DNA of 64,000 nucleotides from Alphaproteobacteria bacterium (GTDB lineage: Bacteria > Pseudomonadota > Alphaproteobacteria > Sphingomonadales > Kordiimonadaceae), in assembly GCA_021774695.1 (NCBI GenBank), contig JAJFIU010000089.1:1-64000 (forward strand), written 5' to 3'. Shown here piece by piece: positions 1-9,007 of the stretch; within the stretch, counting starts at the first letter, position 1, and each line of letters starts with the position of its first letter. Below the pieces are notes generated by a model, which saw only the letters and a program-made list of their open reading frames with translations, had not been told where the DNA came from and did no database searches. Both the position numbers and the translations under genes were made by a program.

Positions 1-1
1 T

Positions 2-586
2 GCCCAGGCAGCGGCCCAGGCGGCGGCTGATGCAAACGAACAAGTGAGGCGTTCAACCGAGGCTCTTCTTGAGGCTCAAGTTGAACTTGCTCAGGAAAAC
101 ACCCGGCAAACCGAGCTTGCGTTGCAGGTAGCGCAGAGAACCGCCGAGGACGCCATTGAGGCATCACTTGATGCAACCACACTGGCAACTCAGGCGATAG
201 CAAGTGCCGCGCAGTCCAATAACAGCACCGTTGAGCGGATCGCTCGCGATGCCCAGGAAACGGCACGCAATGCGGTTGACCGCGCTAATGAGGCCGTGAA
301 AACCGTGAGCGATACGATCAGCGATGTTGCTGAGACGGCTTTGCGGTCCAATGAGAATGTAATTGATGGTGCAGGCGGATTTTTAACAGCCGCACTTGAA
401 GACAGTAACCAGCTTTCCCGCTCTCTTTTGGAAGATGCTCAGGAAACAAATCAGCTTGCAATCACGTCGGCGACCCCAGGCGGTCAAATCATTGAGCAAA
501 CCGAAACCGTAGCACTCGGACTTGGTGCGGTGTTGGTGGCAATCGTTGTGATCGTGATCGCTCTTAGCATGAGGAAAAAATCGTAA
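2..586 (+). CDS. Phage-like coiled-coil protein with C-terminal membrane anchor (5' partial)
   Basis: The reading frame is open to the left edge, so the true start lies outside the window; at least 194 residues are visible. The protein is rich in Ala, Glu, Gln, Asn and Thr with heptad-like spacing, which predicts a long coiled coil. It ends in one hydrophobic helix (GLGAVLVAIVVIVIALSM) followed by a basic tail (RKKS), so it should be C-tail anchored in a membrane. The stop overlaps the next start (taatg). It heads a same-strand run of short phage-like genes. I do not recognise a family. A virion membrane or spike-base protein is possible, but that rests on context only. Confidence 0.7.
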   Translation, partial: AQAAAQAAADANEQVRRSTEALLEAQVELAQENTRQTELALQVAQRTAEDAIEASLDATTLATQAIASAAQSNNSTVERIARDAQETARNAVDRANEAVKTVSDTISDVAETALRSNENVIDGAGGFLTAALEDSNQLSRSLLEDAQETNQLAITSATPGGQIIEQTETVALGLGAVLVAIVVIVIALSMRKKS

Positions 587-870
587 TGTTTATCACCAAT
601 GCAGTTGATCTTTATGCGGACGGCCTGGAGGCGGTGAAGGTGGTTGATGCGGACGAGCGACGCACATCGCTCAATATTTCCGCTGGCACTACACCCTTGT
701 TTTGGGGCGGCAACAGAAAAGTAAAGGCCGGGACGGTATCAAATGCCGTTATCGCTGGCGGTCGGTTTGAGATCAAAACATCTGCGGAAGTTTGGGTTAT
801 TCGCCAAGCCGGTGATGCCGGAACATTTGGATTTTCAGAGGAGTTTACTGGCGATGGCCCAAGTCTATGA
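586..870 (+). CDS. Small beta-rich phage-like protein
   Basis: This 94-residue protein has no membrane helix. Alternating short hydrophobic stretches (VDLYADGLEAVKVV, FEIKTSAEVWVI) and many glycines suggest a small all-beta fold. The start codon overlaps the stop of the upstream coiled-coil gene, implying coupled translation. A minor structural protein of the phage-like element is plausible from its position between the anchored coiled coil and the fibre-like gene. No family was recognised and no function is assigned. Confidence 0.6.
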   Translation: MFITNAVDLYADGLEAVKVVDADERRTSLNISAGTTPLFWGGNRKVKAGTVSNAVIAGGRFEIKTSAEVWVIRQAGDAGTFGFSEEFTGDGPSL

Positions 871-883
871 AGGTGATGCTGTA

Positions 884-1030
884 ATGGAGGTTTTTTTATT
901 GCAGCAAGCGGAACTTGAAGCGCTGAAAAACACGCATAGCGTGGCAATCCTGGCACTTCAAACCGAACAAGTTAGCCAGGGCATTGTAGATGCTGATCAC
1001 GAAACTCGTATTACGAATTTGGAGCCTTAA
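884..1030 (+). CDS. 48-residue hypothetical phage-like protein
   Basis: The frame stays open further upstream into the preceding gene, but the ATG at 884 has an AAGGTG ribosome-binding site 8 bases upstream and avoids the overlap, so this start is preferred; ATG 854 is the alternative. The product is a short helical peptide (Gln/Glu/Leu rich, then ADHETRITNLEP). It lies 3 bases before the fibre-like gene. It could be a small structural or chaperone peptide; nothing more can be said. Confidence 0.45.
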   Translation: MEVFLLQQAELEALKNTHSVAILALQTEQVSQGIVDADHETRITNLEP

Positions 1031-1033
1031 ACC

Positions 1034-1897
1034 ATGACCACAACAGATGATGTAGTAGCGGCTTCAACCCTGCAAACAGCCACGTTTCAGGCTCATGTTG
1101 ATGTGATTGCAGGTGCGGCCCAGGCGGCTACCGACGCAGGTAACGCCAAAACAGCGGCGGAAGCTGACGCGGCAAGCATTGATGGAATTCATACGACTGT
1201 AGCGGGCCAAGCTGGAAACATAACGGACACAATTAACGACATTAACGCGGCGATTGTGCCAAAAATTCAATACAGAAATCAGCTTATTGGTGGCGGGCGT
1301 TTTATGGATAATGCCGCTGATGAAGATAGCCCGTATTTGACAAATGCTTTTTCTACTAATGGCCTTGGCGGTTATAACGGCGCGACTATCGTTGACGGTG
1401 GTAAGTACGCATATAATAACAGCACCTATGGCGGTTCTGCGGCGGAAGTTGATCAAACTGTTATTGACCTGCTAACCACTATGGGCCGTGCGGGTCAACG
1501 GTACGGGACCAGCTTTCGCATTGCAGAGTTAACCGCAGGTGATGGCACATATGTTCTTGTAGACGGCCTGCCGCAAGCAGTCGTTTCAAACGGCATTGAC
1601 ATGAGCATGTACAACGATTTGTCGTATGCATGTTGGGTGCGTCTGATCAGCGGCACGGCAATAGTTGAAGATCTGGCCGGACTCTGGATTGACGGTGTTT
1701 CTCAACCTAGCAACAAGGCCTTAGATGTTGCGGAAAACTGGGTTCATGCTGCGGGAATATATAATCGTCCCCTTGGCTATTACACCGATTATTACCCTAA
1801 AATTCACGCGTCCGAGGGCTCGGTAATTCAGCTCGCCATGCCTGTTCTGGTCGCCGCTGCTGTTCAACTGCCCATTCACATTCAGCCTCTAGTGTAG
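1034..1897 (+). CDS. Putative phage fibre or spike protein
   Basis: This 287-residue protein has two visible parts. Residues 1-80 are Ala/Thr/Asp-rich with helical repeats, as in trimeric fibre shafts. Residues 85-287 are rich in Gly, Tyr, Asn and Thr with aromatic beta-strand patterns (LGGYNGATIVDGGKYAYNN, CWVRLISGTAIVEDLAGLW), resembling a lectin-like or carbohydrate-binding head. This shaft-plus-head layout is common in phage receptor-binding proteins. The gene lies between small structural-type genes and a lysis module. Assignment is by architecture and context only; no named family was recognised. Confidence 0.5.
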   Translation: MTTTDDVVAASTLQTATFQAHVDVIAGAAQAATDAGNAKTAAEADAASIDGIHTTVAGQAGNITDTINDINAAIVPKIQYRNQLIGGGRFMDNAADEDSPYLTNAFSTNGLGGYNGATIVDGGKYAYNNSTYGGSAAEVDQTVIDLLTTMGRAGQRYGTSFRIAELTAGDGTYVLVDGLPQAVVSNGIDMSMYNDLSYACWVRLISGTAIVEDLAGLWIDGVSQPSNKALDVAENWVHAAGIYNRPLGYYTDYYPKIHASEGSVIQLAMPVLVAAAVQLPIHIQPLV

Positions 1898-1907
1898 GAG
1901 AACCAAA

Positions 1908-2363
1908 ATGCTCAAAGTATTGTTGGACGGACAGCCACACACGCAAATTAGTGACCCGATTGCGCTTGACGAACATGCAGACCGAATAGGCGTTGATGTG
2001 TCTCGCTTATCGATTGATGCCGATGATCTGGCGACATTTGAAGCCGGGCAAAAGCGCAAGAAAATCCGCGCTGAAATCGAGCCGGCTGCAGGCGATACGC
2101 CAGCCATTCAAGGCACCATTGCCGACAATGTTGGTTTAATCATGGAAAAACTCGGACGGCTCGCGCTGGCGCACGCTCAAGATGAGGCCGCTTTCACCGC
2201 GGCAATGGCTGATCTGGCAAACACCCTCACACCGCTTGTTGCCGCGATTGACGGCGGCACTTGCACCATGACCCACCACGTCAAGGGTGTTGGCACGGTG
2301 GTGAGTGATGCCTGCGAACGCTCGAACGCCGTAGCAGGCGTGTTGATCGCAAATGCGGAATAA
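1908..2363 (+). CDS. Hypothetical phage-like protein following the fibre gene
   Basis: 151 residues, start ATG supported by TAGGAG 6 bases upstream. The N-terminal third is a short beta/alpha stretch (MLKVLLDGQPHTQISDP); the middle (GTIADNVGLIMEKLGRLA) is amphipathic helix. No membrane helix is seen. The final 11 bases overlap the cell-wall hydrolase gene, so the two are probably co-translated. Its position right after a fibre-like gene would suit a fibre-assembly or capping protein, but this is inferred from place alone. Confidence 0.55.
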   Translation: MLKVLLDGQPHTQISDPIALDEHADRIGVDVSRLSIDADDLATFEAGQKRKKIRAEIEPAAGDTPAIQGTIADNVGLIMEKLGRLALAHAQDEAAFTAAMADLANTLTPLVAAIDGGTCTMTHHVKGVGTVVSDACERSNAVAGVLIANAE

Positions 2364-2850
2364 TGATGGAAAATTGATCATTGCAGTGATCGCACTGCTT
2401 TTGATTTTGATAGTTTGGAGAAGTTTGATGAAAAATATTGAATGGACAGCGCGGATTGCCTGGGGCGAAGCGCGCAGTGAAGGTGCTCAAGGGCTGCATG
2501 CCGTTACCAACGTCATTGATAACCGAGCCCGAATGGATCTGTTTAACGACAATAAGCCCGATTGGTGGGGTGAAACTCATGTCGGTGTTGCAACAAAGCC
2601 CTGGCAGTTTTCCGCCTATAATCCCGGCGATCCAAACCGGAAAAAGCTCGAAAGTGTTACCGATGCTGATCCCCTTTTTGCAACAGCAATTGAGCTGGCA
2701 GCAAAAGCGTTGAAAGGCGAACTCCCAGACATCACAGAAGGCGCAACCCATTACCATACGGTTGGCCTCTCACCGCTGCCAGATTGGGTAAATGTGGCAG
2801 TGCCCACGGTTCGTATCGGCAAACACCAATTCTATAAGGATGTCGCCTAA
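2353..2850 (+). CDS. Cell-wall hydrolase, SleB-like, with N-terminal membrane anchor
   Basis: 165 residues. Residues 8-22 (KLIIAVIALLLILIVW) form one hydrophobic helix; the rest matches the SleB-type cell-wall hydrolase domain (WTARIAWGEARSEGAQGLHA, VINR-like NVIDNRA, then KPWQFSAY). In this family the Glu of the GEAR motif is the likely catalytic acid for cutting peptidoglycan glycan strands. It is the expected endolysin or virion-entry lysozyme of the element. A second ATG at 2428 has a good GGAG site 7 bases upstream and would give a soluble form without the anchor. The 5' end overlaps the preceding gene by 11 bases. Confidence 0.85.
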   Translation: MRNNDGKLIIAVIALLLILIVWRSLMKNIEWTARIAWGEARSEGAQGLHAVTNVIDNRARMDLFNDNKPDWWGETHVGVATKPWQFSAYNPGDPNRKKLESVTDADPLFATAIELAAKALKGELPDITEGATHYHTVGLSPLPDWVNVAVPTVRIGKHQFYKDVA

Positions 2851-3029
2851 TGCCGTTGATTTTAGTAGCCCTTGCCGCTTTCGGCGTTGGCGCATTTGGC
2901 GGCGCACAAGCCGACGACGCCATTGAAGTTGTAACCGGTGAAAAAGATGTTTTTCCGCTGTTGCCGATCCTGTTTGTGCTCGGTGTTGGCTTGTACATTT
3001 TCGTTAAGACCAGGAAAGCCGGATCATGA
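2850..3029 (+). CDS. 59-residue membrane protein with two hydrophobic segments
   Basis: Translated directly from the sequence: an N-terminal Gly/Ala-rich hydrophobic stretch (LILVALAAFGVGAFGGAQA), a short charged loop (DDAIEVVTGEKD), then a strong membrane helix (LLPILFVLGVGLYIFV) and a basic end (KTRKAGS). The first segment could also be a cleavable signal (GAQA-DD). The ATG shares its A with the stop of the hydrolase gene. Small one- or two-helix proteins of this sort are typical of the internal membrane of tailless phages, and also of small phage lysis proteins. No family recognised. Confidence 0.6.
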   Translation: MPLILVALAAFGVGAFGGAQADDAIEVVTGEKDVFPLLPILFVLGVGLYIFVKTRKAGS

Positions 3030-3196
3030 CTGTTGAACAGATAATCATGATTGCTTTTGGAGCCCCAACGGTAGCGCTACTGAGCGGCATCTATTTTCGC
3101 CTTGGCGGTATCCAGGTGGCACACGAACATTTTGAAAAACAGGTTGAAAAACTGTGGACGGCCATTCGTGAATTGAGAAAGGACTATGCAAGATGA
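3026..3196 (+). CDS. 56-residue protein with N-terminal membrane helix
   Basis: The start overlaps the upstream stop by 4 bases (ATGA). Residues 5-24 (QIIMIAFGAPTVALLSGIYF) are hydrophobic, followed by an amphipathic, charged helix ending LRKDYAR. This is the layout of small phage spanin- or holin-associated proteins and of small virion membrane proteins. The continuous 4-base overlaps from here through 3196 argue that this is a real translated gene despite its size. Function unknown. Confidence 0.55.
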   Translation: MTVEQIIMIAFGAPTVALLSGIYFRLGGIQVAHEHFEKQVEKLWTAIRELRKDYAR

Positions 3197-3369
3197 GTAG
3201 ACGCAGAATTATGGCGCGCAACCGCGCTGAAATTGAAGTTTCTGAAGCCTCGCCTTATGCGGCGATGAGCAAAGACCAATTGGCGGACCTATTCCGCGAA
3301 AAAGGCGGCAAGGGTGTTCCCGAAGGCTGGCCAAACGCGACCATCATTAGAAAACTAGAGGAGTTATGA
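3193..3369 (+). CDS. 58-residue basic hypothetical protein
   Basis: The start overlaps the upstream stop by 4 bases. The N terminus is strongly basic (MSRRRIMARNRAEIE) and the C-terminal half (YAAMSKDQLADLFREKGGKG, then TIIRKLEEL) looks like a small SAP- or HeH-type helix-extended loop-helix that could bind nucleic acid. No membrane helix. The gene sits immediately before the very basic 45-residue protein. A DNA-associated virion protein is possible; the fold suggestion is tentative. Confidence 0.5.
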   Translation: MSRRRIMARNRAEIEVSEASPYAAMSKDQLADLFREKGGKGVPEGWPNATIIRKLEEL

Positions 3370-3371
3370 AA

Positions 3372-3509
3372 ATGGCAGTTAAGAAACTGAAAACTGGACA
3401 GACCCGAAAGCGGATTAAAGGGACTGTTCGCACAGTTTTGAAAAAAGGCTATCGCTACGGTAAAAGCGGAAAGCCGATCAAAGCTAAACCAGCACGTCGC
3501 AGAAAATGA
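3372..3509 (+). CDS. Very basic 45-residue protein
   Basis: The product is almost wholly Lys/Arg/Gly (MAVKKLKTGQTRKRIKGTVR and ending KPARRRK) with hardly any acidic residues. ATG 3372 is chosen because the GAGGAG ribosome-binding site ends 8 bases upstream; ATG 3366, in the same frame, is only 2 bases from that site. Its stop overlaps the next start (ATGA at 3506). Such polybasic small proteins commonly bind phage DNA. The same composition would also suit an RNA-binding peptide. Confidence 0.55.
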   Translation: MAVKKLKTGQTRKRIKGTVRTVLKKGYRYGKSGKPIKAKPARRRK

Positions 3510-3730
3510 GTTACCGGCGTGTCATATTGTTTGGTTTTGCATTGTATTTCTGCGTGCTCATGTGGCGTGTAGCGACCCTTGATACACAACCGGCGACCGA
3601 TCTTGCCGACGCGCTGCCCTGGGCTCTGGTGATCATTCTTATGTTGCCCGAGACACGCTTTAAGGTCGGCGAGCTTCTGTCGGGCCTTAAAACTTGGCGA
3701 AACGGTGAAGATGAGGGAGATAAATCATGA
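3506..3730 (+). CDS. 74-residue membrane protein with two membrane helices
   Basis: Residues 5-21 (RVILFGFALYFCVLMW) and 37-51 (LPWALVIILMLP) are hydrophobic; the C terminus is hydrophilic and charged (WRNGEDEGDKS). Starts and ends overlap the neighbours by 4 bases. Placement immediately before a holin-like gene suggests a lysis accessory or virion membrane protein. No family recognised. Confidence 0.6.
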   Translation: MSYRRVILFGFALYFCVLMWRVATLDTQPATDLADALPWALVIILMLPETRFKVGELLSGLKTWRNGEDEGDKS

Positions 3731-4263
3731 TACTTGATATCCTTGGCTCTGCCGGTTTTGGCACCATAATAGGCGGTGTTTTCGGCTTTTTGGGTAAGCG
3801 TGAAGAGCGCAAATTACTCTCAGAAAAAAACGACCATGCACTAAACTATATGAAGGCCAAAACTGATGCGGCAATCGCCGTCGCAAAGATGGGCATTGAA
3901 GAGGCTAGAGTTGCTGGAGCAATGGTAGTCGAAAAGATTGAAGCTCAAGCTTTCTCAAACAGTCAAAAAAGTAGTTCTCCGTTTTCAGATGCCGTTAAAA
4001 GTTTTGTGCGCCCGGTTATTCTCGGCCTGCTGATGTATCAAACCTACAAGATACTATCTTCACTCGAAGTCTTGACCGGTGGCCTTGCTGGTGTTCCATC
4101 CGCTGATGTGATTGCACTTTACAAGGTGGTGATACTATCAGTAACCGGGCTTACTTCAACGGCTGTTGGCTGGTATTTTGCTACACGCTCGAGCAAACAG
4201 TTTGATAAGTTACTTGACCGCGAATATCAAAAACCTGCGGGCGGAACCACACCACGTCAGTAA
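3727..4263 (+). CDS. Holin-like membrane protein
   Basis: 178 residues: an N-terminal hydrophobic, Gly-rich helix (ILGSAGFGTIIGGVFGFLG), a long charged helical middle (residues about 25-85), then two membrane helices around 95-112 (RPVILGLLMYQTYKILSS) and 133-150, with a C-terminal segment GLTSTAVGWYFATRSSKQ. The spacing and the GWYF-x-x-RS ending resemble three-helix holins found in alphaproteobacterial phages. It would make the inner-membrane lesion that lets the SleB-like hydrolase act. It overlaps the preceding gene by 4 bases. Holin function is inferred from layout and neighbours. Confidence 0.55.
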   Translation: MILDILGSAGFGTIIGGVFGFLGKREERKLLSEKNDHALNYMKAKTDAAIAVAKMGIEEARVAGAMVVEKIEAQAFSNSQKSSSPFSDAVKSFVRPVILGLLMYQTYKILSSLEVLTGGLAGVPSADVIALYKVVILSVTGLTSTAVGWYFATRSSKQFDKLLDREYQKPAGGTTPRQ

Positions 4264-4278
4264 TAGCGATGCGGGATC

Positions 4279-4506
4279 GTGTTTGTTGCTGGCTGGCGGC
4301 CTGCGGTTGGCTGGGTATGTGCCGACGCTCTTGCCTGGCATTTAGTACTCTATGACCTCGCCGCCTGGGCACAACTTGCGTTCTTCCCCGAGACACCGGC
4401 CCTGCCCACGCTCAGCTGCACCGGTGAGCTGGTAACGGTGCTGTTTTCTATGTTGGGGATTGGTGGGCTAAGAGGCTTTGAGAAGCTGAAGGGAATATCA
4501 CGCTAG
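4279..4506 (+). CDS. Short 3TM-holin family protein, possibly truncated
   Basis: 75 residues from a GTG start. The sequence (FVAGWRPAVGWVCADALAW, GELVTVLFSMLGIGGLRGFE, KLKGISR) matches the conserved core of the 'holin of 3TMs, for gene-transfer release' family, including the GWRP-x-x-GW and MLG-x-GGLR-x-x-EK motifs. Family members normally carry 50 or more extra residues before GWRP. Here an in-frame TAG lies 15 bases upstream, and the usual charged lead-in seems to continue in another frame (ATG at 4269). So this is either a shortened holin or one broken by a frameshift. It follows the first holin-like gene by 15 bases. Confidence 0.6.
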   Translation: MFVAGWRPAVGWVCADALAWHLVLYDLAAWAQLAFFPETPALPTLSCTGELVTVLFSMLGIGGLRGFEKLKGISR

Positions 4507-5660
4507 GCTTTCGAGTGGAGAGAGAGCTCATAGACGCTAGTTTCGATACACAGTTCCCCCGTAGCTACTCGCTTTGCTGGATGCTTAAAAACCTCGATTT
4601 TGGGTGATTGGGAAAGTGCTTCTTTCACTAGATAAATCCAGTATTGCTCAGCAATTTTAGGATCATTTGCGGCTTTCCATTCATTGCGCGTAATCTCGAT
4701 ACCGTTGATCTGTTTTCCCTTGGTTGCCTTTACTTCGATATATATTTTAGCTCCAGATAAATCATACGACGTTATATCCCAACCCGGAGTGTCTCCTCTG
4801 GCCGCATGATGGTCTATTTTGGCCGCCAACTCTGTAAGGCCTGCCTGGATGAGCTTCTTCTTTTCAGCCCGAAGAACAGTTAACTCACCTGCGTTGCCGA
4901 CTTTCTTGCTAACTTTTGAGCGGCGTTGACCGCCGCCCTTTCCGCCAGTATTACGCGCTTTTTTTGGCGATCTGGGCTGAAAATTCAAGTAGCTTTCGAC
5001 AACGCTCGCCTCAACCTTAGGCAGGGACGCTTCGACCAGTTCGTCAATATCCGGAATTGCAGGGTCCTCGACAACCTCCAGATAAAAATCAAGAATACCT
5101 TGATAATCGGCCTCCAGCTGAGAGTTAGGCGGCAAATTATCCACTTGATATGCAGCGAACGAAAAGATGCTTCCCACCTCATACGCCTCATAGGACCATG
5201 GAGCGCGTATCGAGTTCAAATTGAGTTGAGGCAAATCCAACCCTTTTGGCGGATGTTTATCCTGACAGTGTCCTTGAATTTTCTGAGCTGCAGTTTCAAT
5301 TTTTTGCAAGCAATTTTTGTTTGAGCCGAACTGCTTTTGAAATTGTGTGGCGCCAAGTGCAAAGCTTAGATAGACGCGCTCAAGGTCGGCGGAAAACAGA
5401 TAAACGGGGTAATAGCCGTCGGTCGCAGCCTTTGTTATTTGTGGATGAAATGTTGCAACCCACGGCGCGACAGCAATGTTCCCTTTCCCCGATGACCCTG
5501 TGTGGAGGAAAGGCCGGTTCTGTGGAGATAGCCTTTTCAATTCCTGGCTAAACTCTTTGACGACAAGAAGATTCGTTGAATGCGCCCCGTCTATTGTTCC
5601 TAGTTTTCGATATTCCGGCCAGTCCTCCGCCACTCGTGCAATTAGCTCTCGTAACTTCAC
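4503..5660 (-). CDS. Restriction-type nuclease: McrB-like N-terminal domain plus NOV/DUF3883 domain
   Basis: 385 residues from a GTG start with GGAGG 7 bases upstream. Residues about 20-190 match the McrB-type N-terminal domain (DUF3578): GSSGKGNIAVAPWVATF then ITKAATDGYYPVYLFS and VYLSFALG. A basic linker (about 228-255) follows. Residues 255-385 match the NOV/DUF3883 nuclease-like domain, with Asp295 in GWDITSYD and the IEVK motif (Glu309, Lys311), consistent with a PD-(D/E)xK core. There is no McrB GTPase. In other bacteria these domains occur in type IV-like restriction and anti-phage proteins. It converges on the phage-like run with a 4-base overlap. Likely a defence gene carried by the element. 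Confidence 0.75.
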   Translation of the reverse strand: MKLRELIARVAEDWPEYRKLGTIDGAHSTNLLVVKEFSQELKRLSPQNRPFLHTGSSGKGNIAVAPWVATFHPQITKAATDGYYPVYLFSADLERVYLSFALGATQFQKQFGSNKNCLQKIETAAQKIQGHCQDKHPPKGLDLPQLNLNSIRAPWSYEAYEVGSIFSFAAYQVDNLPPNSQLEADYQGILDFYLEVVEDPAIPDIDELVEASLPKVEASVVESYLNFQPRSPKKARNTGGKGGGQRRSKVSKKVGNAGELTVLRAEKKKLIQAGLTELAAKIDHHAARGDTPGWDITSYDLSGAKIYIEVKATKGKQINGIEITRNEWKAANDPKIAEQYWIYLVKEALSQSPKIEVFKHPAKRVATGELCIETSVYELSLHSKA

Positions 5661-5818
5661 AGGTACACCCTCCTCTATTTTGCAACACCGTCGTGCACAA
5701 TTGTTTCACTAGATCAATTCTCCCCAAAATAGTCTAGCTGAAAGGTGTGGGAGGCTCGGTTACGCCGAATTTTGATGTATGGTATTAGTGGGGTAAACAT
5801 CTAAATCATTGAAAGATA

Positions 5819-5864
5819 TGGTGCACCCGATAGGATTCGAACCTGTGGCCTCTGCCTTCGGAGG
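5819..5864 (-). other. tRNA-Arg(CCG) 3' fragment, attachment-site scar
   Basis: On the minus strand the sequence runs from the anticodon loop (CTCCGAA, anticodon CCG) through the 3' anticodon stem GGCAG, variable loop, T arm with GGTTCGAATCC, acceptor strand and an encoded CCA. Homology stops at the anticodon stem: the bases at 5865 onward do not resemble the D arm or 5' acceptor strand. Anticodon-loop-to-CCA blocks are the classic attB/attP core used by tyrosine integrases. For a minus-strand tRNA a displaced 3' fragment should mark the left border of an element lying to its right. No intact tRNA-Arg is found in the window. Confidence 0.85.
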
Positions 5865-5901
5865 AAGCTAGGATAGGGCTGGTGTATAGAAGTAAAAGGA
5901 C

Positions 5902-6612
5902 ATGACGAGGGTGCTAACTCACTATACTAATTCAATCGATAATGTCGTTTCCATCTTGAGGAGCGGTTTTATCTTTGTACCAAATACCCGCGGGTTGCTT
6001 GCGGCTCTACTGGAGGTCGAGGCAATAAAAGAACAGCCTTGTCGTGGTATGGTATGTTTTACGGAGATTACCCCAGAAGATGCTGTGGAGAAGATGTCCG
6101 ATTTTGGAAAATTCGGCGTAGCGATGAAAGCGGAATGGTGTGCTTTAAACAATGCAAAGAAAGTGCATTATCTGGGAACAAACAAAAACAGCGTCGATTT
6201 TCGCGCTGCACAAAATAAGTTCCAATCAGCATATCCAAATATTGATACATCGAAAGTTCCAAGGCTGGAAGATTGGCTAAAAAACTTGGCAGCAAACAAA
6301 CGCGAATTTGCTAAATCCTTTGGAGCGGAAGAGTTCGCCGCGCTGCTCGATGAATATGAATATTATCAGACCGATGAACACTGGAGCGAACACGAATGGA
6401 GAATCATGAGGTCTCATGAATTCTCATATTCTGAGGGTATGGACCGCGCTGATTTGATCGAAACCTTAAAGCGATGTGCAGCGGCTAATAGAATACCTAC
6501 GTTGAGATTCGATCCGCAAGATGTTGCTCATTTTGTGTGTCCGGGCCACGAGCAAGACCAATTGAACGAGTTATTGCCTGAAAACTATCGATGTCATCCG
6601 ATCTACTGCTAG
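5902..6612 (+). CDS. AbiGi/DarT-like protein, possible abortive-infection ADP-ribosyltransferase fold
   Basis: 236 residues. The N terminus (LTHYTNSIDNVVSILRSGF, His7-Tyr8-Thr9) resembles the H-[YF]-T...SILxxG opening of DarT-type and related ADP-ribosyltransferase-like folds. GMVCFTEI (49-56) and EHEWR (163-167) resemble conserved blocks of the AbiGi and DUF2971 families. These have been linked to phage exclusion, but the biochemical role of this protein is unknown. The gene stands alone, 37 bases after the tRNA-Arg fragment, with no macrodomain or other antitoxin partner nearby. It ends before a strong terminator. The AGGA site is only 2 bases from the ATG, so the start is not certain. Confidence 0.65.
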   Translation: MTRVLTHYTNSIDNVVSILRSGFIFVPNTRGLLAALLEVEAIKEQPCRGMVCFTEITPEDAVEKMSDFGKFGVAMKAEWCALNNAKKVHYLGTNKNSVDFRAAQNKFQSAYPNIDTSKVPRLEDWLKNLAANKREFAKSFGAEEFAALLDEYEYYQTDEHWSEHEWRIMRSHEFSYSEGMDRADLIETLKRCAAANRIPTLRFDPQDVAHFVCPGHEQDQLNELLPENYRCHPIYC

Positions 6613-6695
6613 GGCAGATTAGCGAGCCTAGACTCGTAAAAATTCCACCATTCGCCCACCAAATGCACGATAAGATTTTGAATTTTATTGATTTT

Positions 6696-6726
6696 TTGGT
6701 GCCTCTTCTGGGCACCAATTTTTTTA
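6696..6726. terminator. Intrinsic terminator between convergent genes
   Basis: Arms TTGGTGCC (6696-6703) and GGCACCAA (6711-6718) with a 7-base loop, followed by a run of T. It should stop transcription from the AbiGi-like gene; the A/T-rich flanks on both sides would also let it serve the convergent VOC gene. Confidence 0.8.
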
Positions 6727-7104
6727 TTTTATCATATGCAATGCGCAGATCTTGTTGCCAGACGGGTCGCGCAAATAGGCCAGATACATTTGAGTTGTAT
6801 CATTGCCGCGAATGCCGGGCGGGTCTTCGATTGCCGTGCCGCCGTTGGCCAGGCCCGCTTCATGCCACGCATCAGCCAACTCAGGGCTAGCCGCACCAAA
6901 CCCTATCGTGCTGCCGTTGCCGCATGAAGCGGCTTTGCCGTCAATTGGCTTGCTGAGGGAAAATATACCGGTTTTCTCATAATAAAAGCAGCGGCCTTTT
7001 TCGTCCATAACGCCGGGCCGGTGGCCGAGAACCTCTAATATTGCATCGTAAAATTTCTTCGATTCAGCGACATCATTGGCGCCGATCATAATATGGCTAA
7101 ACAT
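6724..7104 (-). CDS. VOC (glyoxalase/bleomycin-resistance fold) family protein
   Basis: 126 residues from the ATG at 7104, which has GAGAGG upstream; the frame is open further upstream but without family similarity. The start (MFSHIMIGANDVAESKKFYD) and end (AYLRDPSGNKICALH) are the hallmarks of the vicinal-oxygen-chelate fold, with potential metal ligands at His4 and the C-terminal Glu/His region. Such proteins act as lyases, dioxygenases or ligand binders; the substrate cannot be told from sequence. Single gene, convergent with the AbiGi-like gene and divergent from the secreted protein at 7368. Confidence 0.85.
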   Translation of the reverse strand: MFSHIMIGANDVAESKKFYDAILEVLGHRPGVMDEKGRCFYYEKTGIFSLSKPIDGKAASCGNGSTIGFGAASPELADAWHEAGLANGGTAIEDPPGIRGNDTTQMYLAYLRDPSGNKICALHMIK

Positions 7105-7367
7105 AGCTATGTACCTCTCAAAACTAAATGGTCCCGATTGTATGACCAGCGGCTGTGCGTTAGTCAATACTGCTGCAACCATATCCCAACTCTGCCTGAT
7201 CCAACTTGCCCGGGCTGACCTGCATGAACAGATAACCGACACGGCTTCGACAACGCTTCCTTAGCTATCGTTCTGGCCCGCGGCACACCCGTTTCACCGA
7301 AATTAACTGGCGGCGCAGCGCGCTTATGGTCACTTTGGTTTAGCAAAAGAAGAATAGGGGATATTCA

Positions 7368-7931
7368 ATGCGAAAAATGTCAGTGGTACTTGCCGCGATC
7401 ATCGCGCTAACGGGATCGCAAGGCGCCTACGCCCAAGCCAGCTGCGAACTTGGAAAACCGGCAGAGGGTATGCCGCCAGAGTTTGACCAGTTCAAATTTA
7501 TTATCGGCGACTTTGACATTAATGTGCGCAAAATGACCGAGGACGGCTGGAGCGATCCGATCGGAAAGGCCCGCTGGAACGGCCGCTACTCATTGGGTGG
7601 CCAGGCGATCATGGACTGGTGGCACGGGTCGGGCGGTGGCGGCGGGGTTAACCTGCGCATGTACGACCCAAAACTTGGCGAGTGGCGAACTGCCTGGCAA
7701 GCAACCGGCAATTTCGAAACCCGCGACCTGCGCCAGAAGATATGGCCCGAGGACGGACTGCTTCATTTATGGCAGGTTTATCCCGAAGCGCCTGAGCGTA
7801 ATTTATATTTTGAAACTTATAACGACGGCAGGTGGGCACGAATAGACCAAAGAAAAGACCCTGAAACCGGCGAATGGAAACCAGTGTTTATGCTGGAGGC
7901 TGTTCCTGCGGCTTGCGAACCAAGAAACTAG
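7368..7931 (+). CDS. Secreted protein, DUF1579-like
   Basis: 187 residues with a clear Sec signal peptide (MRKMSVVLAAIIALTGSQGAYAQA, cleavage after AYA or AQA). The mature part has the pattern of DUF1579-like beta-barrel proteins: an opening FIIGDFDINV, repeated WxG/W strands (GRYSLGGQAIMDWWHG, LGEWRTAWQA), and YFETYNDGRWARID. Such proteins are periplasmic or surface proteins of unknown role, probably lipocalin-like binders. A GGGG-containing ribosome-binding site lies about 7 bases upstream. Single transcription unit. Confidence 0.7.
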   Translation: MRKMSVVLAAIIALTGSQGAYAQASCELGKPAEGMPPEFDQFKFIIGDFDINVRKMTEDGWSDPIGKARWNGRYSLGGQAIMDWWHGSGGGGGVNLRMYDPKLGEWRTAWQATGNFETRDLRQKIWPEDGLLHLWQVYPEAPERNLYFETYNDGRWARIDQRKDPETGEWKPVFMLEAVPAACEPRN

Positions 7932-7992
7932 CCGCCGCAAACGCTTCAAATGATGGCAACGTGTGATGGCATAGCGGTCGGGGGCATTCGAC

Positions 7993-8793
7993 TCACTCGA
8001 AATACACCATACATTGGCGCGAAAGCGCGATCAGTGCTCCGCTTTCGCTGTATATGCTGCCGCTTTGCTGCGAATAACCACCTGCAGCGGCATCAAGCGC
8101 AAAATCCAGATAGAACCAATCACCTTGCACTTGTTCCGGCGACACAATAAATTCGATCGACCAGCTCATGGTGCTGGCACGCGCAGGCTGATCATAATGG
8201 CTCAGGATAACCGGGGGCGGCATATCCGCGATACTGATGATTTTGGCGATGGGGAATGCATTCATATCGCTGCGGTGCCGCACCCACATAGACGTGCGGC
8301 GGTCTTTCGAACCGCTCATCGGCACGCCGCCGCCGGTCCAGCGGATATCAAAATTATCAAGAAATCCCGGCAGCGGGCGCAGATCTTTCTGCATCGACGG
8401 CACGCTATCGCGCGCTGGCATATGGACAGCCTTATCTGGAACCATCTCAACGCCGGGCCGGTCATCGCCGAAGGCGGCTGATGCCGTGAAACAAACCTGA
8501 TCGCCCGAAAGTATATCGGCGCGAGTTTGCACCACAGCACGACCCTCCCGCAAAATTTCAGTCTTTATGGCCAAATCGCCTTCTGGTGCCGGTGCAACAA
8601 AATTTCCAAGAAACGACCGAATCGGTCTTGGTGCCGACAGCAGGTTTGCCATAGCATCTGCAGCTATTGCAGCCACCAGCCCACCATAAACCGCGCGCCC
8701 CTGCGCCCACCCGGCTGGTATTTGCACGCTACCGCCGGCTGTTCCGGCCAGATTTTCCATAATTTCTTGCATGCTGGTGGTATCAGACATCAT
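7993..8793 (-). CDS. Acyl-CoA thioesterase-like double-hotdog protein
   Basis: 266 residues. Residues 25-110 (GWAQGRAVYGGLVAAIAADA, then RSFLGNFVAPAPEGDLAIK) and 190-266 (VILSHYDQPARASTMSWSIE, GDWFYLDF, GSIYSESGALIALSRQ) form the two hotdog repeats of TesB-like/thioesterase-superfamily proteins. The family hydrolyses acyl-CoA thioesters in the cytoplasm; chain length cannot be predicted. There is a second ATG 3 bases downstream. It is divergent from rnd across about 215 bases. Confidence 0.8.
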   Translation of the reverse strand: MMSDTTSMQEIMENLAGTAGGSVQIPAGWAQGRAVYGGLVAAIAADAMANLLSAPRPIRSFLGNFVAPAPEGDLAIKTEILREGRAVVQTRADILSGDQVCFTASAAFGDDRPGVEMVPDKAVHMPARDSVPSMQKDLRPLPGFLDNFDIRWTGGGVPMSGSKDRRTSMWVRHRSDMNAFPIAKIISIADMPPPVILSHYDQPARASTMSWSIEFIVSPEQVQGDWFYLDFALDAAAGGYSQQSGSIYSESGALIALSRQCMVYFE

Positions 8794-9007
8794 TGGCTCT
8801 CACTGCTTGTTAACATTGGGTTTTCTGCTGCTCAGACAGTAGCTAGTGCGGCAACCATACATGCCAAGGATTTCGGCCAAAGCAACAATAATGTATGCCG
8901 CAAATACAATGATCAACGAAGCGCCCTTTATTCTGCCATAACCTTCTCTATAATAGCCGAAAATTACAAACTGCCGTTTTTGGCAGCGATTAAAGGATTG
9001 CCAACGA

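Follow-up and report, generated by a model that had tools for sequence, protein, structure and literature searches.

The gene run at the start of the window

What kind of element ends in a dense row of very small genes, many of them encoding membrane proteins, and why does that row begin at the first base of a contig? The question is raised by a 64,000-nucleotide stretch (hereafter the window: positions 1 to 64,000 of contig JAJFIU010000089.1 of assembly GCA_021774695.1, G000:C160:1-64000 in our numbering) from an alphaproteobacterium of the Kordiimonadaceae, in which base 1 is an assembly end. A sequence-only reading had suggested a tailless, membrane-containing phage (PRD1, PM2, or FLiP type) for positions 1 to 4506, with the end of a tailed prophage as the alternative. 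Such phages are common in water, but few have been cultured. We are highly confident that a temperate tailless phage of the PM2-like kind (Vinavirales) is integrated in the genome of this marine Kordiimonas bacterium and that the run forms the right half of its late operon. The element is cut by the limits of the window: it starts on another contig of the same genome, C144, and extends to window position 6717.

Window positions 2-4506 are tiled end to end by 13 open reading frames (ORFs), all on the forward strand, so the packed single-strand run of tiny genes described earlier is real. Most junctions do overlap (9/12), as had been stated, although by 1 to 17 rather than 1 to 11 bases; at the remaining three the ORFs are 3, 10, and 15 bases apart. 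Hydropathy likewise bears out the count of at least six products with membrane helices, with segments in the proteins of 194, 165, 59, 56, 74, and 178 amino acids (aa); a marginal seventh segment, called in the 287-aa protein, probably represents a beta strand. We accept the 13 genes as real because they are conserved in related proviruses. Using blastp at E ≤ 0.01 (composition and low-complexity corrections were off, thus weak E-values are optimistic), 11 of the 13 have a match in the provirus of genome G070, in the same order, as do eight in G049, two in G024, three in G061, and none in PM2. G070 and G049 (Kordiimonas gwangyangensis) belong to the window's own genus.

The upstream half of the element

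The sequence-only reading predicted that a jelly-roll capsid gene and a HerA/FtsK-type packaging ATPase gene would be found to the left of the window. Both are on C144 (12,654 bases), which ends with the 18 bases that open the window. Each of the two sequences contains this 18-mer a single time, and the join keeps the reading frame of the cut gene: 90 codons on C144 (L023:12383-12652) run into window 2..586, which encodes the C-terminal 194 aa of what becomes a 279-aa membrane-anchored coiled-coil protein at the position of PM2 P10. The joined protein aligns end to end with a 278-aa protein of G070 (190 of 283 columns identical), and the homologue of the window part (68%) lies inside a contiguous provirus. 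There, genes for an integrase, a Rep, a P-loop ATPase, and a 312-aa protein precede a run of small genes that corresponds to that of the window. A search with the 312-aa protein brought up the C144 capsid protein, so that the genome of the window itself has a homologue (63%). The diagnostic genes were hidden because the contig break separates C144 from the window.

C144 also encodes the integrase (76.5 bits; cut-off 27.1), an HTH/S24 repressor, and a Rep with weak Rep_1 similarity (24.3 bits, under the cut-off of 33.2) and, unlike PM2 P12, no phrog_91 match. A 121-aa protein weakly matches PM2 P8 (phrog_8911, E 0.0084; blastp 5.7e-4), and a 128-aa protein in the place of the GNAT protein had no GNAT match. 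We also note, between the ATPase and capsid genes, a gene for a lipoprotein-like protein of 350 aa that contains a long charged stretch (L023:9009-10061); the protein has no significant family match, and no such gene was called at that place in G070.

A large terminase, portal, and tail genes immediately upstream were what the earlier reading said would speak against it, and none were found. No portal, HK97 capsid, tail tube, tape measure, or baseplate family occurs among the 13 genes of the run and the 17 C144 ORFs scanned (some short C144 ORFs were left out of the scan). The only family named terminase large subunit among the scanned proteins is the one that contains PM2 P9. Genome-wide, the one terminase profile sought at that scale, PF04466, is absent.

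Capsid protein and packaging ATPase

The C144 capsid protein matches Pfam P2_C (27.5 bits; cut-off 25), as do its homologues in G070 (the 312-aa protein) and G049, with 29.1 and 33.6 bits. It also falls into phrog_8536, the family of PM2 P2 itself (3.2e-4), which is matched by the G049 protein but not by that of G070. The C144 ATPase belongs to phrog_2666, the family of PM2 P9 (1.7e-16), and hhalign gives 96.6% for the ATPase alignment against P9. Membership in Vinavirales requires a P9-type FtsK/HerA ATPase close to the capsid gene, and this is where it stands.

Using an AlphaFold2 model of the G070 capsid protein built from three sequences, Foldseek placed PM2 P2 at the top (E 2.2e-6), followed by the capsid proteins of PBCV-1 and iridoviruses; PRD1 P3 and STIV came lower, amid some unrelated rows. 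VIA-align with residues 167-312 only gave Z 10.7 for PR772/PRD1 P3, 9.4 for STIV, and 8.6 for PM2 P2, and the N-terminal jelly roll is not displayed by this low-confidence model. Taken together, the profile matches and the model argue for a double-jelly-roll capsid protein like PM2 P2, the type that Vinavirales membership calls for. Thus, of the three phage types suggested earlier, it is the PM2 type that the gene content supports.

Searches of wider collections returned little. The capsid profile had no match among PDB sequences. Viral contigs had none to the coiled coil, the 287-aa protein, or the capsid and ATPase alignments, and phage records had none to the coiled coil, the C144 capsid protein, or the basic peptide described below. 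The ATPase found only weak FtsK-type matches in phage records (E about 0.1), and its profile count in class genomes (346/385) was set aside, as most scores were weak and FtsK-like.

Related proviruses and the capsid tree

Relatives of the element occur in four genomes (G070, G049, G024, and G061), where they are contiguous, measure 14.8-21.0 kb, and have the same gene order. Records with capsid-protein relatives include uncultured Kordiimonas 2-78-G, Kordiimonas gwangyangensis DSM 19435, and uncultured Kordiimonas 81-G. With the window's own genome counted, searches for the capsid protein gave matches in 5 of 396 genomes at the level of the order and, using a five-row profile, in 6 of 385 at that of the class.

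In a capsid tree of 17 rows (none dropped; the published clade A and Jorvik left out), the five Kordiimonas-group rows come together on a single branch (100/100, length 1.47). It is apart from PM2/GXT1010, fNo16/PG21, D526/1.020.O, YY, and five other alphaproteobacterial proteins, the last of which came from a profile seeded with the Kordiimonas rows. YY (2.53) and G499 have long branches, and the N-terminal extensions of G495 and G499 were trimmed to an inner Met beforehand. Replication genes differ within the group (L023:4367-5563, L014:12916-14187, and L031:5796-6983): they are Rep_1-like in the window's genome and G024, with a close relative in G061, and Rep_trans-like in G070, and that of G049 has no Pfam match. 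For comparison of size, phage records with PM2-like capsids are 10.0-12.5 kb among the matches listed (20 of 23), and YY is 8.8 kb. The general kind of phage is known; this one is set apart by its deep, large-genome branch, by a spike that appears to be spread over several genes, and by having a receptor-binding part in common with the tailed phage JBD30.

Probable spike genes

Three genes follow the coiled coil. The first (586..870), at the position of PM2 P1, encodes a 94-aa protein modeled as a small beta barrel (pLDDT 67). VIA-align ranks the PM2 spike protein P1 best (2vve, Z 10.2, rmsd 2.3, 84 aligned; 2w0c, Z 9.5), with unrelated barrels in the same list at Z 9.1 and below; by Foldseek (E 0.063) and hhalign the match to P1 is not significant. 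Because the model aligns to P1 residues 91-335, outside the N-terminal part of P1, we refer to it as a spike protein and not as a penton base. It is probably part of the vertex spike. The second gene (854..1030) encodes a 58-aa protein that is 53% identical to a G070 homologue in the same place, a probable spike connector.

The third (1034..1897) encodes a 287-aa spike or receptor-binding protein of phrog_2875, matched in 146 phage records, nearly all from Pseudomonas phages. Its residues 76-286 match chain a of the JBD30 baseplate entry 8rk3 (E 1.1e-20), which is presumably gp54. With a 271-aa protein of G070 it has mainly the first ~75 residues, an N-terminal adaptor, in common, and the remainder differs; therefore, it seems that the adaptor and the receptor-binding part can be exchanged, and the window copy appears to use a JBD30-type domain. 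The small spike protein is a separate gene also in G070 and G049, and it is fused within ORFs of 924 and 934 aa in G024 and G061. G049 has tail-repeat domains at its spike locus.

Hydrolase, small proteins, and probable lysis genes

Next comes a 151-aa protein (1908..2363) that is 45% identical to a G070 homologue in the same order and has no family match at E<0.1. It is followed, at the position of PM2 P5, by a 165-aa membrane-anchored cell wall hydrolase of SleB type (2353..2850; Pfam Hydrolase_2, 52.6 bits against a cut-off of 27), with relatives in G049, G024, and G061. In its place, G070 has a 174-aa protein (L030:14437-14961) with a weak, sub-cut-off peptidase M15 match, as if the wall enzyme had been swapped. 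Four small proteins accompany the basic peptide: membrane proteins of 59 aa (2850..3029, matched in all four relatives), 56 aa (3026..3196, matched in G070 and G049), and 74 aa (3506..3730, 40% identical to its G070 homologue), and a 58-aa protein (3193..3369, matched in G070 and G049).

The basic peptide itself (3366..3509) had been described as 45 residues of almost pure Lys/Arg/Gly, which is overstated: it has 47 aa, with 43% Lys/Arg and 11% Gly. It has a KKGYRY-type core in common with counterparts in G070, G049, and the alphaproteobacterium G499. Among 289 genomes of the class it was found in two (E 1.8e-5 and 0.0055), both with such proviruses and in the same place; tblastn against the phage collection found none. 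Neither PM2 nor the proviruses of G404, G495, and G683 showed this core, and it was likewise not seen in the basic proteins of G024 and G061. A role as a DNA-packing protein is possible.

The last two genes appear to be concerned with lysis. The 178-aa membrane protein (3727..4263; phrog_6637) is 84% identical to its G070 homologue and 51.5% identical, over 92%, to a protein of Alteromonas phage ZP6. It is also found in six viral contigs, and the one scanned has tape measure and baseplate genes. The final 75-aa ORF (4279..4506) matches the holin family phrog_3427 (5.6e-10), but only over positions 71-138 of 141, and narrowly misses PF11351 (24.4 bits; cut-off 24.8). In G049, a 132-aa protein contains a stretch with 83% identity to it. 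Given this partial family match and the partial identity to a longer protein, it is probably a truncated C-terminal remnant, and it looks like what is left of an older GTA-type holin that is whole in G049.

This truncation bears on whether the provirus has decayed or been domesticated and no longer forms particles, which we regard as unlikely, although by no means far-fetched. The other late ORFs are open and conserved, the integrase and repressor genes are open, and the attachment sites are recognizable; moreover, the 178-aa protein may stand in for the holin.

Ends, size, and cargo of the provirus

Window positions 6702..6717 (forward strand) are identical to the 3′ end of tRNA-Leu(CAG) and mark attR, the right end of the provirus. 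A 16-base match is weak evidence alone (E 0.33), but it gains weight because of its place and the synteny. An intact tRNA-Leu is found on contig C104, 19 bases before the contig end. The genes ahead of it, which we take to be gltB, gltD, and uppP, have the same order as the G070 locus without an insertion. The provirus thus comprises at least 19,353 bases (12,654 + 6,717 − 18), or about 19.4 kb. Contig C158 has a 36-base match to the G073 locus, which was considered as the left flank and rejected, given the intact tRNA-Leu on C104 and the presence of another insertion in G073. A repeat scan of window 1-9000 yielded no convincing attachment site.

Two defence-like cargo genes lie inside the provirus, directly before attR. 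One encodes a protein with MrcB_N and NOV_C domains, of a defence-like nuclease type (4503..5660, reverse strand; 114 and 58.4 bits, with partial PADLOC matches). The other encodes an AbiGi-like protein (5902..6612, forward strand; 26 bits against a cut-off of 22.4; PADLOC AbiGi, 1.6e-10). Could the phage instead occupy window 2 to about 4506 only, with 4506-6702 a second element at the same tRNA-Leu? Cargo does vary among the relatives, and in G073, a genome of the same genus, a different insertion of ~17.8 kb sits at this tRNA (G073:C57, 16275-16290 and 34057-34145). However, there is no further copy of the tRNA end on the window contig, no integrase is seen by eye between 4506 and 6702, and in G070, too, attR lies ~2 kb beyond the last holin-type gene. 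We consider a second element to be quite improbable.

The relatives appear to use more than one kind of site. The G070 element (20,991 bases) lies between copies of part of tRNA-Cys. Those of G049, G024, and G061 (17,119, 14,818, and 15,895 bases) are flanked by a 17-base core that, as we see it, resembles E. coli dif; in G024, additional direct repeats of 29 and 27 bases lie beyond the dif-like pair and offer an alternative boundary and size. No integrase was noticed in the gene calls of these three elements as read, and no profile search was made. This pattern points to two possible routes of integration in a single small group: an integrase of the phage's own acting on tRNA genes (the window's genome and G070) and the use of dif-like sites (G049, G024, and G061). 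The G024 element also carries a C-5 cytosine methylase-like protein (L024:9883-10608).

Strength of the assignment

Several observations weigh against a PM2-like provirus. Tailed phages share two of its genes, namely that of the 178-aa lysis-type protein and, for its receptor-binding end, that of the 287-aa protein. No overlap connects C104 with C144, and none of the joins is spanned by reads. The N-terminal P2 domain (P2_N) is under its cut-off in the C144 capsid protein (18.6 vs. 25), as it is in the G070 and G049 homologues, and the C144 ATPase is under the Pfam FtsK cut-off (20.4 vs. 24), although that of G070 is above it (27.1). The G070 capsid model is poor (pLDDT 44.7), and hhalign with small alignments gave no significant match to the single PM2 proteins P2, P1, P3, orf h, and orf j.

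The lysis and tail-fiber end of an ordinary tailed prophage, to which the JBD30-like C-terminal part of the 287-aa protein (common with siphophages of that type) and the occurrence of the 178-aa protein in tailed phages could point, is very hard to reconcile with a PM2-type capsid gene and ATPase upstream, with scanned proteins free of portal, terminase, and tail families, and with the same contiguous layout in four relatives. It should be noted that the JBD30 and ZP6 matches initially favored this tail-end interpretation, which was dropped once C144 was found.

Proposed life cycle and implications

What the sequences show directly is the content and order of the genes, the families of the capsid protein and ATPase, the attachment sites, and the conservation among relatives; the membrane, the particle, DNA packaging, spike assembly, lysis, and present activity are predictions. 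If the provirus is still active, its cycle as a PM2-like phage can be sketched from the genes. The tyrosine integrase would insert a circular genome into tRNA-Leu, and the HTH/S24 repressor would keep the provirus silent. Upon induction, a rolling-circle-type Rep may copy the genome. The double-jelly-roll capsid protein would then assemble around a membrane bearing the small helix proteins, and the FtsK-like ATPase would package the DNA, which the basic peptide may condense. The host-binding vertex spike would consist of the 94-, 58-, and 287-aa proteins, and the anchored cell wall hydrolase together with a holin-type protein would open the cell.

The proviruses may, although this is less likely than not, represent a new family-level PM2-like lineage in the Kordiimonas group, 14.8-21.0 kb when integrated and about twice the size of sequenced members. 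They may have a larger capsid or a dedicated KKGYRY packing peptide, a spike built from separate adaptor and receptor-binding proteins, and receptor-binding domains and holins taken from tailed phages of another realm.

Named provirus carriers, including the type strain K. gwangyangensis DSM 19435, are now available for this deep, large-genome branch. A receptor-binding domain and a lysis-type protein are common to tailed and tailless phages, and the small basic peptide is a testable candidate for a DNA-packing protein. More generally, tailless prophages are missed when detection relies on tails, and in this case a contig break concealed the diagnostic genes as well.

Comparison with known systems

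With PM2 (Pseudoalteromonas; Corticoviridae, Vinavirales), the element shares the P2-type capsid protein, the P9-type ATPase, and the late gene order (ATPase, small membrane protein, capsid, membrane proteins, long anchored protein, spike, and anchored hydrolase). Candidate counterparts of P3, P8, P10, and orf h have matching places and sizes, although hhalign to the PM2 proteins is not significant. PM2 has only 10,079 bp, compared with at least 19.3 kb here, and the element differs from it in having another Rep, a SleB-type hydrolase, an apparently multigene spike, an integrase, and cargo. Membership in Corticoviridae would call for a capsid protein in the PM2 clade, a P12-type Rep, and a P5-type lysin, none of which is seen here: the capsid branch is separated from PM2/GXT1010 (100/100), the Rep has weak Rep_1 similarity, and the lysin is of the Hydrolase_2 family. 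A 2025 taxonomy summary lists five families in Vinavirales (PMC12451628).

Jorvik and Marinomonas phage YY (Mestraviridae) are also temperate, and Jorvik has an alphaproteobacterial host. According to the Jorvik paper (PMC10589892), a small putative acetyltransferase gene lies between the membrane proteins and P10, and a GTA-type holin closes the structural operon, both in places that match the present element. Per the same paper, Jorvik differs in its 8,762-bp genome, lack of an integrase, and use of dif-like sites. The capsid protein of YY is outside the Kordiimonas branch, its place being unsure because of its long branch. A literature search on prophages in Kordiimonas returned a single paper, which concerned a Shewanella phage, and the proviruses may be among the 849 prophage hits mentioned in the Jorvik paper (PMC10589892).

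Clade A of Vinavirales is similar in its alphaproteobacterial hosts, its occurrence as proviruses, and a SleB-type hydrolase at the PM2 P5 place, as the passages on these members in Yutin (2022) describe (PMC9502842); the last feature is found in the window, G049, G024, and G061, but not in G070. An integrase is not described in those passages, which call integration unclear for most members of the order (PMC9502842), and our comparison with clade A is by description only. Genomes of 10-15 kb with such capsids are noted by Yutin (2018) (PMC5894146). PM2-like prophages, some with integrases and CI-type repressors, were described as early as 2007 by Krupovic and Bamford (PMC1950889), and dif-like sites are used by the NO16 phages (PMC9966536). 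Tailless Vibrio prophages (ISME J 2024) have integrases, dif sites, and defence cargo, as does this group; the tailless and filamentous Vibrio prophages are described as below 16 kb (PMC11630473), and they differ in host and capsid branch.

The remaining likeness is to a phage of a different class. Pseudomonas phage JBD30 (Caudoviricetes) has the receptor-binding part of the 287-aa protein in common with the element (~31% identity over 76%), yet it is characterized in the structural account of that phage as a siphophage with a tail and baseplate (PMC11445458).

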